A stretch of 40,008 nucleotides of DNA, from NCBI GenBank assembly GCA_025360845.1, contig JANYBJ010000203.1, positions 1-40,008 on the forward strand. The letters are read 5' to 3'. The stretch is from a bacterium. GTDB taxonomy: Bacteria > Verrucomicrobiota > Kiritimatiellia > RFP12 > UBA1067. This document shows, piece by piece, positions 1,842-38,161 of the stretch. The translations under genes were made by a program, and so were the position numbers. Within the stretch, counting starts at the first letter, position 1; each line of letters opens with the position of its first letter. Below the pieces are notes generated by a model. The model saw only the letters and a list, made by a program, of their open reading frames with translations. It did no database searches and was not told the origin of the DNA.

Positions 1842-2729
1842 TTGAGCGAACGCGATTATGTCCCTGTCTGGCCTGTGCCCGAGCGCACGAGCTTTTTATC
1901 CGGCACGGCGATCGAGATCGTGCGGCCCCGCGTCTTCGGGCATGTGCCGAAGCACGCGCTGTTCGATTTCGACGGCACCTTGAGCCTCGTTCGCGAGGGG
2001 TGGATGGACATGATGATGCCTCTGCTGATCGGACATCTCATGCCCTACGCGAGAACCGGCGAGACTCCGGAATCGATCACCTCGCTTGTGCGCAACTTTG
2101 TCACCGAACTCACCGGCAAGCAGACCATCTACCAGATGATCCGTCTGGCGGAGGAGATCCGTCTGCGCGGCGGCACGCCCGCAGATCCTCAGGCGTACAA
2201 GGCCGAATACCACGACTGCCTCATGGCCCGTATCGCCAGCCGGCGCGAGGGGCTGGCCGACGGTTCCCTTCGGCGCGAGGCGATGCTGGTCCCCGGTTCA
2301 ATCGAGATTCTGTCTGCCCTCCGTGAGCGCGGCACGGCCATTTACGTCGCCTCGGGCACGGACGAACAGTATGTCCTTGAGGAGGCGCATCTGCTCGGAA
2401 TCGACGAATTCGCGGAGGGTCGCATCTATGGCGCGCAGGCCGATCACGCGAGCTTTTCCAAGGAGATGGTGATCCGGCGCATCCTCAAGGAAAACGCGGT
2501 TGAGGGCGCGTCGCTGATCGCGTTCGGCGACGGCTACGTGGAGATCGCCGACTGCAAGGCGGTGGGCGGCATTGCGGTGGCGGTGGCAAGCGACGAGACC
2601 GCGCGCTCCGGCAAGTGCGACGCGTGGAAGCGCGAGCGCCTCATTGGTGCGGGCGCGGACATGGTGATTCCCGACTATCTTGAAACGCCCGCGCTGTTGG
2701 ACTACATCTGGAGGGGAGGCGCGACATGA
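1842..2729 (+). CDS. HAD-superfamily hydrolase
   Basis: This 295-residue protein carries all four haloacid-dehalogenase motifs. Motif I is DFDGTLS with the nucleophile Asp42 and acid/base Asp44. Motif II is ASGT, motif III a Lys in the SKE segment, and motif IV GDGYVEIADC. The long helical insertion between motifs I and II marks a C1-capped phosphatase or phosphonatase type. The substrate is unknown. The start is TTG at 1842, fixed by a strong GGAGGAA site 4 nt upstream. The last codons overlap the next gene by ATGA (2726-2729), so it is translationally coupled to the PfkB kinase. In this context it probably dephosphorylates a sugar phosphate or related intermediate made or used by its two neighbours; this last point is inference. 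Confidence 0.8.
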   Translation: MSERDYVPVWPVPERTSFLSGTAIEIVRPRVFGHVPKHALFDFDGTLSLVREGWMDMMMPLLIGHLMPYARTGETPESITSLVRNFVTELTGKQTIYQMIRLAEEIRLRGGTPADPQAYKAEYHDCLMARIASRREGLADGSLRREAMLVPGSIEILSALRERGTAIYVASGTDEQYVLEEAHLLGIDEFAEGRIYGAQADHASFSKEMVIRRILKENAVEGASLIAFGDGYVEIADCKAVGGIAVAVASDETARSGKCDAWKRERLIGAGADMVIPDYLETPALLDYIWRGGAT

Positions 2730-3781
2730 CCGGTGCCCTGCGTGCGTTTGATGCGGCCCGCCTCGAGGCGCTCACGACCCGTTTCCGCAATGTGCGCGTC
2801 GCGGTGTTGGGCGACTACTTTTTGGACAAGTATCTCGACATCGATCCGGCGCGTGCTGAGCCGTCGCTTGAAACGGGGCGGACGGCGCACCAGGTGGTGG
2901 GTATCCGACACGCTCCGGGCGCCGCTGGGACGGTCGTGAACAACCTCGCGTCGCTCGGCGCGGGACGCATCATCACCATCGGTTTCACAGGAAACGACGG
3001 CGAAGGCTGGGAACTGCGCCAGGACCTCGCCGCGTTGGGATGCGACCTGACGCATCTGCATGTCGAGCCTACCCGCGTGACGCCGACCTATCTTAAGCCG
3101 TGTGACCGCACGCGTCCCGGTCTCGAGGGCGAGCACGACCGCTACGACATCAAGAACGATCAGCCCACGCCGGCCCGCATCGAGCAGGCTCTGTTGGCAT
3201 CCTTAGACGCGACGCTTCCCAACGTCGACGCGCTCATCGTCATGGATCAGGTGAAAGAAGCTGACCGCGGCGCGCTGACCGCTCGGCTGATCGCCGCCCT
3301 GGCCGAACGGGCTCCGCGTTTTCCCAGGACGATTTTCTGGGCCGATTCGAGGGGGCGCATCCGGCTGTACCGCAACGTGATGGTCAAGGTCAACCAGTTC
3401 GAGTTGACGGACGAGGAGAATCCGGCGCCCGGCGCGTGCGTGCCCGACGCGGTGATCCACGCCGAGACCGAGGCGTTCGCCGCCCGGCTGGGCGCGCCGG
3501 TCTTCGCAACCGCCGGGGAACGCGGCGTACGCGTGTCGGGGCCTGACCCGGTGACCGTGCCCTCGGTCCGGGTGGCCGGACCGGTTGATCCCACAGGGGC
3601 GGGTGACTCCTTTACCGCAGGATCGGTTCTCGCCCTCGCGTCTGGCGCCACAAGGCCTGAAGCCGCGCTGGTCGGCAATCTCGTGGCCTCGGTCACGGTG
3701 CGGCAACTCGCCACAACAGGCACGGCTGCCCCCGGCGATCTTCTCTCGGCTTTGGCGCTCTGGAAGGAGCAGAACCCATGA
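2726..3781 (+). CDS. PfkB-family sugar kinase, similar to the HldE/RfaE kinase domain
   Basis: The 351-residue protein has the ribokinase/PfkB fold signatures. GDYFLDKYLDIDP near residue 30 and an APGAAGTVVNNLASLGA segment resemble the N-terminal half of the bifunctional heptose-7-phosphate kinase/adenylyltransferase. The family signature DPTGAGDSF near the C-terminus contains the catalytic Asp294. The cytidylyltransferase half of HldE is absent, so the protein is a kinase only. It probably phosphorylates a sugar hydroxyl with ATP; the substrate cannot be assigned. ATGA overlaps join it to the HAD hydrolase upstream and to the deoxyhypusine-synthase-like gene downstream. This implies a fixed stoichiometry and a shared pathway. 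A genuine ADP-heptose route is possible, but no heptose isomerase or heptosyltransferase is nearby. Confidence 0.8.
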   Translation: MTGALRAFDAARLEALTTRFRNVRVAVLGDYFLDKYLDIDPARAEPSLETGRTAHQVVGIRHAPGAAGTVVNNLASLGAGRIITIGFTGNDGEGWELRQDLAALGCDLTHLHVEPTRVTPTYLKPCDRTRPGLEGEHDRYDIKNDQPTPARIEQALLASLDATLPNVDALIVMDQVKEADRGALTARLIAALAERAPRFPRTIFWADSRGRIRLYRNVMVKVNQFELTDEENPAPGACVPDAVIHAETEAFAARLGAPVFATAGERGVRVSGPDPVTVPSVRVAGPVDPTGAGDSFTAGSVLALASGATRPEAALVGNLVASVTVRQLATTGTAAPGDLLSALALWKEQNP

Positions 3782-4902
3782 ACAGACTGTTCGACCGCGA
3801 CAGCATTTCAGTCAGACCCCTTGCCGAACGCAAGAACAAGCTCGATATCCGGCGGGACCTGATTGATCCCGAGGCTTTTCTTCCAACCCTTGACGCTGCG
3901 GCGACAGAGACCGTCGTCCGCGCCGCCGCGGAGGTCCGCCAAGCTCGGGGGTGCGGAAAACCGGTCATCATGGCTTTTGGCGCGCACTCGATCAAGAACG
4001 GCCTTTCCCGCGTCATGATCCGGCTCATGGAAGGCGGCTGGGTCACCCATTTCGCCGCCAACGGGGCGGGGGTTATCCACGACTGGGAGTTCGCGTATCA
4101 GGGGCAGTCCGGCGAGGACGTGAAGCGCTATGTCGCCGAGGGGCAGTTCGGAATCTGGGAAGAGACCGGCGCGTACCTGAACCTGGCTATCGCCGTGGGC
4201 GCGTACCGGGGTCTGGGCTACGGCGAGTCGGTCGGGGCGCTGGTGGCGAACGACGGACTCCTCATTCCCGAACGCGAGGAACTGGCCACAGCCATCGCGG
4301 CGGGGGCCTCTGCCACAAATGAAACGGACCTCACGCGGGCCGCGGCGGCAGCCGATCTGGCCACGTTGCTCGGACGCTTCGGGACGGTTCCGGGGTTTCT
4401 TCAGGTCGAACATCCTTACAAGGTCTACGGGCTGCAGGCGGCGGCCTATACGGCTGGCGTGCCCTTCACGGCTCATCCGATGTTCGGCCACGACATCATC
4501 TACACTCACCCCATGAACCTCGGTGCCGCGATCGGCAGGACGGCTGAGCGGGACTTCCTCTCGTTCACAGACTCGGTGAGCCAACTGGAGGGAGGCGTTT
4601 ACCTCTCCGTGGGGTCTGCGGTCATGTCGCCGATGATCTTCGAGAAGGCGCTATCGATGTCGCGGAACGTCGCGCGTTCCCGCGGCGGCGCGATCGAGGA
4701 TTTTTCGATTTATGTGGTCGACCTCGCGAAGTCCTCTTGGGATTGGACGCGCGACGGCGAGCCGCCCCAAGACAATCCCGCGTACTATCTGCGGTTCTGC
4801 AAGACCTTCTCACGCATGGGGGGCCGCATGACCTACTCCAGCGCGGACAACCGCTCTTTTCTCGTGGCGCTCCTCCGGGCGCTCGAATCCCGGTCTGCTT
4901 AG
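3778..4902 (+). CDS. Deoxyhypusine-synthase-like protein of unknown reaction
   Basis: The 374-residue protein resembles the bacterial relatives of deoxyhypusine synthase. It has an early GAHSIKNGLSRVMIRLM segment, then FAANGAGVIHDWE around Asn95, SGEDVKRYVAEGQFG, and a late LSVGSAVMSPMIFEKALS. These are the NAD-binding and core motifs of the family. The protein modified by true deoxyhypusine synthase (eIF5A) does not occur in bacteria, so the substrate must differ; homospermidine-type or other NAD-dependent aminobutyl-transfer chemistry is known in relatives. I do not see the eukaryotic active-site lysine segment. It is the third gene of a coupled HAD-PfkB-DHS-like unit (ATGA overlap at 3778-3781), which suggests a sugar- or amine-linked small-molecule pathway. 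Family assignment is fairly firm; function is open. Confidence 0.65.
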   Translation: MNRLFDRDSISVRPLAERKNKLDIRRDLIDPEAFLPTLDAAATETVVRAAAEVRQARGCGKPVIMAFGAHSIKNGLSRVMIRLMEGGWVTHFAANGAGVIHDWEFAYQGQSGEDVKRYVAEGQFGIWEETGAYLNLAIAVGAYRGLGYGESVGALVANDGLLIPEREELATAIAAGASATNETDLTRAAAAADLATLLGRFGTVPGFLQVEHPYKVYGLQAAAYTAGVPFTAHPMFGHDIIYTHPMNLGAAIGRTAERDFLSFTDSVSQLEGGVYLSVGSAVMSPMIFEKALSMSRNVARSRGGAIEDFSIYVVDLAKSSWDWTRDGEPPQDNPAYYLRFCKTFSRMGGRMTYSSADNRSFLVALLRALESRSA

Positions 4903-4979: not shown

Positions 4980-5516
4980 ATGGTACTTTCCGATCAACAA
5001 CGTCAGGCTGTGAAAGAGTGGGTGGCGGCCGGCGCCTCTCTTTCCGATGTGCAGCGGAATTTGAAACGCGAGTTTGGCGTGACGATAACGTATATCGATG
5101 TGCGGTTGCTGGTGCTCGAGATCGGAGCCGAGGTTCAGGACAAGCCCGAACCGAAACCACCCAAGGAGGCCGCTCCGAAACCGCAGGCCGCGCCGCAGGC
5201 GGATGATCCGTATGCCGAGGAGTTTGAAGAGGACGCGGCAGGCTTGCCGGCCGAGTCTGCGGCTCCTGCCGAGCCGCAGCCGGACGGCAGTGCGGGTGTG
5301 AAAGTCACGCTTACGCTCGACCGGCTGGTGGTGCCGGGCGCGATGGTCAGCGGTTCTGTCACTTTCTCGGACGGGGTCAAGGCGCGTTGGATGATCGATC
5401 AGCACGGACGCTTCGGACTGGATGCCGAGACGCCGGGTTACCGGCCGTCGAACCCCGATTTGCAGTCGTTCCAGATGCAGTTGCGCGCGGAGTTGCGGCG
5501 GCACGGCTACGCATGA
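4980..5516 (+). CDS. Conserved hypothetical protein with acidic/proline linker
   Basis: I do not recognise this 178-residue protein. The N-terminal 45 residues (LSDQQRQAVKEWVAAGASLS onward) look helical and resemble a small helix-turn-helix or ribosome-hibernation-like fold. They are followed by a low-complexity linker rich in Pro, Glu and Ala (about residues 50-105). A compact C-terminal domain of about 70 residues then begins KVTLTLDRLVVPGAMVSG, looks beta-rich and ends RAELRRHGYA. There is no signal peptide or membrane segment, so it is probably cytoplasmic. The start at 4980 is chosen for its AAGGAGA site 9 nt upstream and the promoter position. It is followed by an inverted repeat and then proC, with no obvious functional link. 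Confidence 0.65.
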   Translation: MVLSDQQRQAVKEWVAAGASLSDVQRNLKREFGVTITYIDVRLLVLEIGAEVQDKPEPKPPKEAAPKPQAAPQADDPYAEEFEEDAAGLPAESAAPAEPQPDGSAGVKVTLTLDRLVVPGAMVSGSVTFSDGVKARWMIDQHGRFGLDAETPGYRPSNPDLQSFQMQLRAELRRHGYA

Positions 5517-34202: not shown

Positions 34203-36920
34203 ATGCCCCGATTGTCACTCGCCAAACTGGAACGACACCTCTATTCCGCTGCCGACCGCCTGCGTCAGGAGGGGCTGGATGCCGCCACGTATAAGGACTA
34301 CATCTTCGGGATGCTGTTTCTGAAACGCTGTTCGGACGTTTTTGACGCCGAACGCGGCCGGATCGTGGAGCGCAAGGTCGAACAGGGCATGGCCTCGCAT
34401 GAGGCGGAAGAGACCTACGGCGAGAATCCGGATTTCTATGACGGCTTCTTTGTCCCAGACCGCGCACGTTGGGAGCATCTGAGCATTAAGTTGAACGACG
34501 GCGCGGAAACCTATGGCAAAGTCCTTGATAAGGCGCTGGAGGCGCTCAGCGAGTCGAACGCGTCGCTGGAGCACGTGCTCGACCATATCAGCTTCATGCG
34601 CGTGCAGGGAACCAAGCGCATTATCTCCGACGATGCCTGCAAGGACCTTGTCCGCCTGTTCAGCCGCTACCGTTTGTGCAACGAGGATTTCCAGTTTTCC
34701 GACCTGCTGGGCGCGGCCTATGAGTTCCTGATCAACATGTTCGCCGAGTCGGCGGGCAAGAAGGGCGGCGACTTCTATACGCCGCGCGATGTGATCCGGC
34801 TCATGGTCCGCGTCCTCAAACCCGCCGAGGGCATGAAGGTCTACGACCCCACCTGCGGGTCGGGCGGCATGCTGATCATCACCCGCGAGTTTGTCGAGCA
34901 GTCCGGCGGCGACCCCTCCAACCTGCGCCTCTGCGGCCAGGTCAACGACGCCTCGGCCTGGTCCATCTGCCGCCTCAACATGCTCCTGCACGGCGAGTCG
35001 GGCGCGGACATCCAACTCGAAGACACGCTGTTGCATCCCCTGCACCGCGAGGGCGGGGAACTGGAACGGTTTGACCGCGTGATCGCCAATCCGCCCTTCA
35101 GCCAGAACTATACGAAGAGCAACATGGAGTTCCCCGAGCGCTTCCGCTGGGGCTGGTGTCCCACCACGGGCAAGAAGGGCGACCTCATGTTCGCCCAGCA
35201 CATGCTCGCGGTGTGCAAGCCGGGCGGCATGGTCGCCACCGTCTTGCCCCACGGCGTGCTCTTCCGCGGCGGCGCGGAAAAGGAGATCCGCAGGAAGTTC
35301 CTTGAGCAGGATCTCATCGAGGCGGTCATCGGCCTGCCGCAGAATCTCTTTTACGGCGCGGGCATCCCGGCCTGCATCATCGTGATGCGGCCCAACCTGA
35401 CCGGCCAGCCGCCCAATCCGCACAAGCCCGCTGACCGGCGAGGCAAGGTGCTCTTCATCAACGCCGATGCTGAGTTCCACGCCGTCCGCGCCCAGAACTA
35501 CCTGCGGCCCGAGCACGTCGAGAAGATCGCCTCCACCTTCGACCGCTACGAGGACATCCCCGGCTATGCGCGCGTCGTGCCGCTCACCGAGATCGCCAGC
35601 GAGGCCAACGACTTCAACCTTAACATCCGGCGCTATGTGGACAACTCGCCGCCGCCGGATGCGCACGACGTGCGCGCCCACCTGCTCGGCGGCGTGCCCG
35701 TGGCGGAAGTGGCCGACAAGCGCCCGCTGTTCGACGCCCTCGGCTTCGATCCGGCCCGCGCTTTCGCCAAGCGGGAGAAAGAGTCCGCCTACTGCGATTT
35801 CTCCTCCGCACTTCCGGACCGCGCCGCCATCCGTGCGCGGGTTGAAAACGATCCCGGCGTTCAGAAGCGTCTCGATGCCGTGCGGCAGCGGCTTATCGGA
35901 TGGTGGGCGGAGCATTCGCCCCGTCTCGCGGCCTTGCCGGAACGCCGCGACCTGAACCGCGTACGAACCGAAGTGCTCGACTCGTTTGTCGCGTCGCTTG
36001 CGCACGTAGAAGCGGCGCCCCCGCCGCTTGCCAAGAAAAGCGGCGAGACGCCGCTTCCACCTTGCCTCGACCGCTTCAAGCTCGCGGGTGTGATCGCCAC
36101 GTGGTGGACGGACAAGCTGCCGGATTTCAAGACCCTGATGGAGAACGGCTTTCCCGGCGTGATCGACGGCTGGGTGGACGCCATCGCCGACGCGGTGGCG
36201 GACGACGAGGCGGCTTGCCCGGCCTTTGACCCCTTCGGTCACAAGCTCGTGCGCCGCACCATGGCCGACTATCTGGCGCGCATCGCTGCGGCCAAAGCCG
36301 ATATCGCCCGGCTCAAGGGCGAGAAAGAGACCTTCGAACAGAGCAATGCGCCTGACGATCTGGAGGAAGAAGAGCTGGCTACGTGGAACTATGCCAAGGA
36401 GCTGGAGCGCCAGGCCAAAGAACTCAAGGCCGAGCACCGCGACGCACTTAAGGAACTGGCGAAGTCTGCAGGGGTAGGGACGCCTCCCCGAGGCGTCCGC
36501 AGGTCAAAGGCAGCGGCTCGCGGGGACGCTCGCCCTCCAGTTCTGACGGCCAAGGTCAAAGCTGTATTTGACCAGCTCGCCTCTATCGACGCGACGCTCG
36601 CGCCTTATGATGAGGCCAAAAAACAGCTTGCCGCCGCCCGCGCCCTCTATCGCACGCTGACCGCCGAGTTTACGGACGAACTTAAAGGCCGCTGCGTCGC
36701 AATGAGCGACGGCGAGAAACGCGCCCTCGTTCTTGAACTCTTCGAACAGGACGTGCAGGGTGGTCTTGATGCGGCCATGGCTGAAAAGCGGCAGGAGTTG
36801 GTGCGCTTTATCGAAGGCCTGTGGGACAAATATCAGGTGACGCTGACAGACTTGCAGGCTAAACGTGCGACGGCGGAAACTCTATTAGAGGAACACCTGC
36901 GAGAACTGGCTTATTTATGA
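34203..36920 (+). CDS. hsdM: Type I restriction-modification system methyltransferase subunit, long form
   Basis: HsdM transfers methyl groups from S-adenosylmethionine to adenine and, with HsdS, protects host DNA. The N-terminal helical domain is followed by the methylase core: DPTCGSGGML (from Asp215) for the cofactor and ANPPFSQ (from Asn296) for N6-adenine methylation. GKKGDLMFAQHML and GGMVATVLPHGVLFRGG are also typical. The usual length is about 500; the 905 residues here include a helical C-terminal half with strong coiled coil (about 690-755) and two in-frame REP insertions (residues 603-618 and 758-779). Long HsdM proteins of this sort are known, but the repeats are extra. It overlaps hsdS by ATGA. 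The restriction subunit hsdR was not found before the window end. Confidence 0.92.
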   Translation: MPRLSLAKLERHLYSAADRLRQEGLDAATYKDYIFGMLFLKRCSDVFDAERGRIVERKVEQGMASHEAEETYGENPDFYDGFFVPDRARWEHLSIKLNDGAETYGKVLDKALEALSESNASLEHVLDHISFMRVQGTKRIISDDACKDLVRLFSRYRLCNEDFQFSDLLGAAYEFLINMFAESAGKKGGDFYTPRDVIRLMVRVLKPAEGMKVYDPTCGSGGMLIITREFVEQSGGDPSNLRLCGQVNDASAWSICRLNMLLHGESGADIQLEDTLLHPLHREGGELERFDRVIANPPFSQNYTKSNMEFPERFRWGWCPTTGKKGDLMFAQHMLAVCKPGGMVATVLPHGVLFRGGAEKEIRRKFLEQDLIEAVIGLPQNLFYGAGIPACIIVMRPNLTGQPPNPHKPADRRGKVLFINADAEFHAVRAQNYLRPEHVEKIASTFDRYEDIPGYARVVPLTEIASEANDFNLNIRRYVDNSPPPDAHDVRAHLLGGVPVAEVADKRPLFDALGFDPARAFAKREKESAYCDFSSALPDRAAIRARVENDPGVQKRLDAVRQRLIGWWAEHSPRLAALPERRDLNRVRTEVLDSFVASLAHVEAAPPPLAKKSGETPLPPCLDRFKLAGVIATWWTDKLPDFKTLMENGFPGVIDGWVDAIADAVADDEAACPAFDPFGHKLVRRTMADYLARIAAAKADIARLKGEKETFEQSNAPDDLEEEELATWNYAKELERQAKELKAEHRDALKELAKSAGVGTPPRGVRRSKAAARGDARPPVLTAKVKAVFDQLASIDATLAPYDEAKKQLAAARALYRTLTAEFTDELKGRCVAMSDGEKRALVLELFEQDVQGGLDAAMAEKRQELVRFIEGLWDKYQVTLTDLQAKRATAETLLEEHLRELAYL
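36010..36056. repeat. Paired REP-like palindromes within hsdM
   Basis: Two 8-bp palindromes share the same arms, AAGCGGCG/CGCCGCTT. They lie at 36010-36029 (loop CCCC) and 36038-36056 (loop AGA). They are translated as a Pro/Lys/Gly-rich stretch between two otherwise helical regions. The block fits the reading frame without a stop. Confidence 0.75.
36478..36539. repeat. Composite REP-like insertion within hsdM
   Basis: A perfect 9-bp palindrome, GGACGCCTC/GAGGCGTCC (36478-36498), is followed by one 26-nt arm (36514-36539) of the 81-bp family. That arm differs from the full copies at two positions and has no partner. The insert is read in frame as a Gly/Arg/Pro-rich linker after the coiled coil. 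Confidence 0.75.
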
Positions 36921-38161
36921 GCGGCACCAGCCATACATCTGTGTTAGATGAACTGGTCGAGTTGCGACTGGAAAAGGTTGCAGGCAACAAAGACCCAAAT
37001 CTTCCCTACATCGGCCTTGAGCAAATCGCTCAAGGGCAGCCGAGATTGTTGGGCACGCTGCCAAGTAGTTCCTCTGTCAGCATTAATGGCCAATTTTCCA
37101 AGAATGATATCCTCTTCGGCAAATTGCGTCCTAACCTTCGTAAGAGTCTCAAGTCAAGCTTCGCCGGTTATTGTTCAACGGACATTCTGGTTCTCCGTTC
37201 GCGAATAGGTGTCCGACCAGATTTCGCAGGACATGTGCTCCAGTGGGAGAAGGTCTTTTCAGCGGCTGCTTCAACAGCTTCTGGCACAAAAATGCCGCGG
37301 ACTTCTTGGAACGAGTTGAAGAGATTTAAGGTCTTCAAGCCCTCATCTGAAAATGAACAGTTCCGTATTGCGGCGGTGCTCGACACTGTTGACGAGACGA
37401 TTGCGAAGATGGAGGCGGTGATTGCGAAATTGCGGCAGGTTCGGACTGGTCTGCTGCATGACCTGCTGACCTGCGGACTCGACGAGCATGGCCAGCTCCG
37501 CGATCCTGTCGCCCATCCCGAACAGTTTCAGGATTCGCCGGTCGGTCGGATACCGAAGGCATGGGAGATCGCAACACTTGTTAGCCGTATCTCTTTCCCT
37601 CAAGGACAGGTTGATCCAAAGCTTGAGCCCTATTGCACTTGGACGTTGATTGCCCCTGATCATATCGAATCGGGGACAGGTACGCTGCTTGCACGCATTA
37701 CGGCGCTGCAACAAGGGGCTATCAGCGGTAAATACATGTGTGAGCCGAACGACGTCATATACAGTAAAATCCGCCCGTATCTTCGGAAAGCTGTACTTGC
37801 CACAGAACGAGGACTCTGTAGCGCCGACATGTATCCGCTACGACCTAACGAAGGCGTTGACCCGCGATTCTTGTTGGCGGTCGTTCTATGCCAATCTTTT
37901 ACGCGATTCGCATCTGCCGTGTCGATGCGTAGCGGCTTTCCAAAGATCAATCGCGAAGAGATGGCCGGATACATGATGGGATGGCCGGACTCGGATGAGC
38001 AAAATCGGATCGCCGATGCGTTGGCGGCGACTGATGCCGTAGCTTCCGAATGTGCCAAAGAACTGGTCAAACTCAACCAGCTCAAATCCGGCCTGATGGA
38101 CGATTTGCTGACGGGCCGGGTGCGGGTGCCGGAACTCGACTTCACTGCAAAGGAGGGGTAA
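36917..38161 (+). CDS. hsdS: Type I restriction-modification system specificity subunit
   Basis: HsdS chooses the bipartite DNA target of the type I complex. The 414-residue protein has two target-recognition domains (about 10-150 and 215-350). Each is followed by a helical spacer with a DxxLTxG-type end (HDLLTCGLDEHG and DDLLTGRVRV). Both contain the N-terminal-type FSKNDILFGKLRPNLRK and VIYSKIRPYLRK strands. The recognition domains look lower in G+C than the flanking spacers and hsdM, as expected from swapping of these domains between genomes. It overlaps hsdM by four bases. The target sequence cannot be predicted by eye. Confidence 0.92.
   Translation: MSGTSHTSVLDELVELRLEKVAGNKDPNLPYIGLEQIAQGQPRLLGTLPSSSSVSINGQFSKNDILFGKLRPNLRKSLKSSFAGYCSTDILVLRSRIGVRPDFAGHVLQWEKVFSAAASTASGTKMPRTSWNELKRFKVFKPSSENEQFRIAAVLDTVDETIAKMEAVIAKLRQVRTGLLHDLLTCGLDEHGQLRDPVAHPEQFQDSPVGRIPKAWEIATLVSRISFPQGQVDPKLEPYCTWTLIAPDHIESGTGTLLARITALQQGAISGKYMCEPNDVIYSKIRPYLRKAVLATERGLCSADMYPLRPNEGVDPRFLLAVVLCQSFTRFASAVSMRSGFPKINREEMAGYMMGWPDSDEQNRIADALAATDAVASECAKELVKLNQLKSGLMDDLLTGRVRVPELDFTAKEG

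Follow-up and report, generated by a model that had tools for sequence, protein, structure and literature searches.

Organization of the three-gene locus

Known activities of the deoxyhypusine synthase (DHS) fold are polyamine transfer to eIF5A, homospermidine synthesis and the cyclisation of ornithine, and the locus described here raises the question of what a protein with this fold might do beside a sugar kinase and a HAD-superfamily phosphatase. The locus lies in the window, i.e., the whole stretch of 40,008 nucleotides of bacterial DNA that was analysed. A first-pass annotation had described the three genes as joined by ATGA overlaps, and both junctions are found in the sequence, together with Shine-Dalgarno-like stretches ahead of each start:

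1831-1835, + strand: Shine-Dalgarno-like GGAGG before the HAD start
1842-2729, + strand: HAD-superfamily phosphatase with a helical C1-type cap, 295 aa, TTG start
2710-2719, + strand: Shine-Dalgarno-like GGAGGGGAGG before the kinase start
2726-2729, + strand: ATGA stop-start overlap of the HAD and kinase genes
2726-3781, + strand: PfkB/ribokinase-family sugar kinase, nearest to HldA/HldE domain I, 351 aa
3764-3769, + strand: Shine-Dalgarno-like AAGGAG before the start of the GSU2086-family gene
3778-3781, + strand: ATGA stop-start overlap of the kinase and GSU2086-family genes
3778-4902, + strand: GSU2086-family protein of the DHS/ornithine-cyclodeaminase fold superfamily, 374 aa, long type

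The trio is kept in a congener at protein identities of 79-82%, and the arrangement is therefore not a product of chance; the HAD start codon, TTG in the window, is GTG at the same position there. Further, the 3' flank of the trio is syntenic between the two genomes and the 5' gene is a different one in the congener, and the three genes thus constitute a unit. Upstream in the window lies a divergently oriented gene (294-1607, - strand) for a protein of the PhoPQ-activated pathogenicity-related family (PF10142, 357.6 bits), and downstream a gene (4980-5516, + strand), syntenic in the congener, for a conserved 178-aa protein with a Pro/Ala-rich middle, for which a Pfam search returned no match. 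Elsewhere in the window, two genes at 34203-38161 look by eye like the methylase and specificity subunit of a type I restriction-modification system. A phage origin was considered and rejected, as phages gave no match.

The third protein as a member of the GSU2086 family

The third protein scores 329.3 bits against NCBIfam NF052581 (GSU2086_dom; cut-off 250) over positions 2-300 of the 301 in the profile, and is hence a member of this function-unknown family, which carries only the locus name GSU2086. It represents a long type, with about 60 residues more than the profile. A second, short-type paralogue (~33% identical) is encoded in the same genome on a 3.4-kb contig (C244; L031, 1346-2452), where it adjoins a frame resembling, by eye, an IS30-type transposase.

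The first-pass annotation had presented this protein as a DHS relative, which stands insofar as it is a remote relative by fold, and falls insofar as membership of the DHS family itself is ruled out. Neither the protein nor its genome yields a match to the Pfam DS model (PF01916, gathering cut-off 27 bits), and the WGK motif, part of the SWGK catalytic lysine motif, is absent from all the family rows in two alignments (0/63 and 0/15, i.e., 0/78) as against its presence in 9/9 DHS rows. Some GSU2086-family relatives reach 20-24 bits with the DS model, still under the cut-off, and the window protein likewise stays under the cut-off of the ornithine cyclodeaminase model TIGR00300 (11.1 bits versus 410.8).

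Remote relationships are nonetheless detectable in both directions. The AF2 model of the protein (pLDDT 93.8, pTM 0.91) retrieves DHS (7cmc, E=1.4e-7) and AgrE (6lrg, E=7.1e-7) as the leading Foldseek matches in the PDB, with DHS chains on top at a probability of 1.00 and a TM of only ~0.45 for this predicted model. The family profile finds ArgZ/AgrE at E=1.3e-4 and a methanococcal LOR/SDH protein at 0.036 over the same N-terminal stretch, across which the match to DHS (E=1.4) is non-significant. Reciprocally, the DS and TIGR00300 models reach family members at 6e-5 and 3e-5, respectively, both under the cut-off, and hhalign yields partial alignments, at E=8.4e-7 for the cyclodeaminase branch and at E=2.1e-5 for DHS. 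On account of these remote profile matches and the lead of DHS and the cyclodeaminase in the fold search, the GSU2086 family is, as judged from profiles and a predicted model, a third branch of the DHS/ornithine-cyclodeaminase superfamily. Within the family, K342, D239, E328, R339, H70, H101 and E104 are invariant in 63 aligned sequences. The invariant lysine lies directly ahead of the last strand and helix, and by this position alone may be the counterpart of the DHS catalytic lysine.

The kinase and HAD partners

The kinase matches PfkB (PF00294) at 74.5 bits (cut-off 25.8), and its GAGD motif (G291-D294) with the catalytic aspartate D294 is invariant in 30 relatives. Its best NCBIfam match by far is rfaE_dom_I (TIGR02198, HldE domain I) at 99.4 bits, and the best PDB match of its profile is the heptose-7-phosphate kinase HldA (4e84, E=1.6e-28; runner-up 1.3e-21). 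The initial description of the kinase as HldE-like is thus borne out; it is not an HldE, because it falls far under the HldE cut-off of 345. The HAD protein matches PF00702 at 38.5 bits (cut-off 26.4) and shows all four HAD motifs, with the catalytic residues D42, D44, S171, K207, D230 and E234 invariant in 32 relatives. Its model (pLDDT 90) displays a C1-type cap and matches structures of the beta-phosphoglucomutase and phosphoglycolate-phosphatase-like kind.

Co-occurrence across genomes

The three genes had been proposed to work as a functional unit, and the genomic survey agrees with this, the families co-occurring well beyond the window. The kinase and/or the HAD adjoin the GSU2086-family gene in 45 of 80 database loci, spanning Spirochaetes, Bacteroidetes, Planctomycetes, Lentisphaerae, Kiritimatiellae and KSB1, among others, and both adjoin it in 11 of the 37 loci from the window's phylum (the window counted); these adjacency counts are based on tblastn, and many of the loci are MAG contigs. 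Four gene orders are seen, namely HAD-kinase-DHS, fused kinase-HAD followed by DHS, HAD-DHS-kinase, and DHS followed by fused kinase-HAD, the kinase and HAD often being a single fused protein.

A survey of 289 genomes of the window's phylum recovered the GSU2086-family gene over its cut-off in 36 genomes and the specific HAD (E<1e-90) in 16, all 16 of which also carry the GSU2086-family gene (hypergeometric 1e-16, a value that ignores shared ancestry). This nesting extends to six of the 16 genomes in which the two genes are unlinked, on different contigs. Conversely, 20 of the 36 carriers have the GSU2086-family gene without the specific HAD, and the family must therefore have a HAD-independent role. 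In Hydrogenedentota and relatives, a long-type gene with no adjacent kinase or HAD lies near a gene that looks by eye like an alanyl-tRNA synthetase (cluster c18; loci L117, L129, L134, L140, L124 and L099).

Association with sugar genes

The trio had also been regarded as isolated from carbohydrate genes. Locally this is so, but carbohydrate operons are the usual setting of the family, and the statement already fails in a genome of the window's own family, where the trio directly follows two such genes in the run SIS isomerase, ROK kinase, HAD, kinase and DHS-like. In the window's own genome the counterparts of these SIS (78% identical) and ROK (58% identical) proteins are paired on another contig (C34), in a sugar-use cluster (L179, 178-7299) with a xylose-isomerase-like TIM barrel, two URO-D-like proteins and a Gfo/Idh/MocA protein. 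Across 93 neighbours, the commonest Pfam families are SIS, GlcNAc 2-epimerase (AGE epimerase), SSF symporter, ROK and LacI, and no polyamine family is found among the 25 commonest.

The composition of individual loci is in line with this tally. In Sphaerochaeta, the run comprises a LacI regulator, fused kinase-HAD, DHS-like gene, AGE epimerase, ABC sugar transporter, ROK and SIS, and the Mariniphaga and Draconibacterium loci additionally hold GH38 and GH92 mannosidases. For the AGE protein, a 535-bit match is found to PDB 8h1k, which we take to be the mannose 2-epimerase of Runella slithyformis. A paper on the latter enzyme is cited in PMC13363691. A Chloroflexota plasmid carries consecutive genes for a HAD (51% identical), a GSU2086-like protein, a PfkB kinase (36% identical) and SIS, and Solidesulfovibrio has a nucleotidyltransferase-kinase fusion, a GSU2086-like gene and SIS in succession. 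In Geobacter, where GSU2086 is flanked by hldE (GSU2085) and gmhA (GSU2087), all three genes are required on electrodes to a similar degree, with Tn-seq log2 values of -3.1 for hldE, -3.2 for GSU2086 and -3.7 for gmhA (PMC5585712), values which polar effects within one operon may explain. In a KSB1 locus (L101), the run is symporter, DHS-like, kinase-HAD and SIS; upstream of it are a gene (440-1696) that looks LarA-like by eye and, with it, a glucuronate-isomerase-like gene. The associated SIS proteins stay under the GmhA cut-off (TIGR00441, 209.45), with 117-171 bits for four neighbours and 113.6 for the protein of the window's genome. Additionally, the SIS protein of the window's lineage seemingly lacks the glutamate of the GmhA-type motif, and its role as an isomerase is therefore uncertain.

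A putative sugar-phosphate module

These observations make it quite likely that the kinase, the HAD and the DHS-fold enzyme share a sugar-phosphate module. In its full form, this consists of a GmhA-like SIS isomerase, an HldA/HldE-I-like kinase, a C1-cap HAD and the GSU2086-family enzyme, often accompanied by a ROK kinase. On the model of heptose activation, a ketose-phosphate and an aldose-phosphate of the manno type would be interconverted by the isomerase, after which the kinase would phosphorylate C1 and the distal phosphate of the resulting bisphosphate would be taken off by the HAD; the substrate might be a mannose-type hexose phosphate or a heptose phosphate. In the DHS fold, bound NAD oxidises the substrate and re-reduces it later. 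Read together, the heptose-activation-like company and this use of NAD by the fold suggest that the GSU2086-family enzyme might employ a bound NAD, possibly along with the invariant Lys342, in a redox-neutral epimerisation, isomerisation or elimination of one of these sugar phosphates. Such redox-neutral NAD chemistry, for which we infer cofactor, substrate and reaction alike, is a tentative reading that attracts somewhat more doubt than confidence, although recruitment of the fold to sugar chemistry as such is probable.

Taken as a whole and including the DHS-fold chemistry, the view that the trio represents an operon-encoded portion of a conserved module for sugar phosphates is the best explanation on offer, held at slightly less than even confidence. 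The fuller proposal of a new sugar-phosphate pathway, in which a third DHS/ornithine-cyclodeaminase branch would act NAD-dependently on a sugar phosphate and the kinase-phosphatase pair would proceed via a bisphosphate, is possible but should be read with some scepticism. One weakness is that the exchange of phosphates in operons which, with their mannosidases and epimerases, look catabolic would seem to waste ATP; another is the set of 20 carriers that have the GSU2086-family gene but not the specific HAD. The searchable papers contain no description of the module that we could find, and subscription journals could hold one; GSU2086 is named in one paper found, and literature on DHS and Sphaerochaeta, DHS and heptose genes, or nickel-pincer and cyclodeaminase had nothing on the module. 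If the explanation is true, it would extend DHS-fold chemistry to carbohydrates in several bacterial phyla, and would assign a role to a family linked to the growth of Geobacter on electrodes. In the phylum, every surveyed genome with the HAD also has the DHS-fold gene, and this, together with the frequent kinase-HAD fusion, offers a concrete lead for a substrate hunt.

Alternative explanations

A nucleotide-activated heptose or hexose pathway, in which the kinase and HAD would deliver an aldose 1-phosphate to a nucleotidyltransferase and the GSU2086-family protein would be an accessory, e.g., an epimerase replacing HldD, has a real if minor chance of being correct. Nucleotidyltransferase-kinase fusions adjoin the gene in Solidesulfovibrio and in locus L033, and in Geobacter GSU2086 sits between hldE and gmhA. 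Further, of the 36 genomes that carry the GSU2086-family gene, 8 have an HldD over its cut-off, versus 177 of the 253 that lack the gene (Fisher 8e-8, uncorrected for ancestry), a contrast that is possibly a lineage effect. In the window's own genome, which is 92% complete, the best HldD match (E=2.2e-31) is far weaker than those over the cut-off, and a congener has an HldD. Against this pathway, the fused kinase-HAD loci examined lack a nucleotidyltransferase, the Sphaerochaeta and Mariniphaga operons appear catabolic, and HldD is retained in the genome (G163) where an HldE-like fusion adjoins the gene, on account of which HldD replacement is treated only as a rival. A net dehydrogenase or ornithine-cyclodeaminase-like enzyme with a sugar acid or an amino compound as its substrate, or one using another cofactor, is unlikely: the sequence link of the family is stronger to the cyclodeaminase branch than to DHS (the hhalign and ArgZ matches above), and NCBIfam labels the related TIGR00300 family as nickel-pincer-nucleotide-dependent, but the match covers only ~72 residues and remains under the TIGR00300 cut-off, and none of the usual amino-acid families is prominent among the neighbours tallied.

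It is also conceivable, though quite improbable, that the genes share nothing beyond a mannoside regulon and that their products serve separate reactions. The occurrence of the DHS-like gene without kinase-HAD in many genomes and the variability of its neighbours would fit this, whereas the kinase-HAD fusion, the adjacency kept through several gene orders and the strict nesting even of unlinked genes speak for the shared module. The first-pass annotation had instead put forward aminobutyl or related transfer onto a sugar or small molecule, for which the enzyme would be a polyamine or aminobutyl transferase of the homospermidine-synthase-like kind. This has in its favour the DHS fold of the enzyme and the fact that other bacterial DHS homologues are, or have been proposed to be, homospermidine synthases (PMC8437039, PMC8594446). 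However, with the WGK motif missing from every aligned row, the DS score under its cut-off and the commonest neighbours devoid of polyamine families, we regard it as very improbable.

Comparison with known systems

The shared sugar-phosphate module that we prefer may be set against four known systems. Like the ADP-heptose pathway (GmhA, HldE, GmhB, HldD), it combines a GmhA-like isomerase, an HldA-like kinase and a HAD phosphatase in one set; it differs in that its kinase is under the HldE cut-off, its HAD is of the C1-capped type, its fused form lacks a nucleotidyltransferase and it adds a DHS-fold enzyme. In the GSU2086 family (NF052581), whose profile the window protein matches over almost its full length, relatives adjoin HldE- and GmhA-type genes, but the window protein is of the long type and its kinase partner has no nucleotidyltransferase. 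The likeness to deoxyhypusine synthase (PF01916) is one of fold and of the N-terminal region, and extends to an invariant lysine near the C-terminal strand whose equivalence is suggested by position; in contrast to that enzyme, the window protein has no SWGK motif or DS match, conserves other residues and belongs to a sugar-operon context. With the NAD-dependent ornithine cyclodeaminase domain of ArgZ/AgrE (TIGR00300) it shares both the fold and detectable sequence similarity, unlike which it lacks the N-terminal domains, stays under the family cut-off and is similar over a stretch of ~72 residues.
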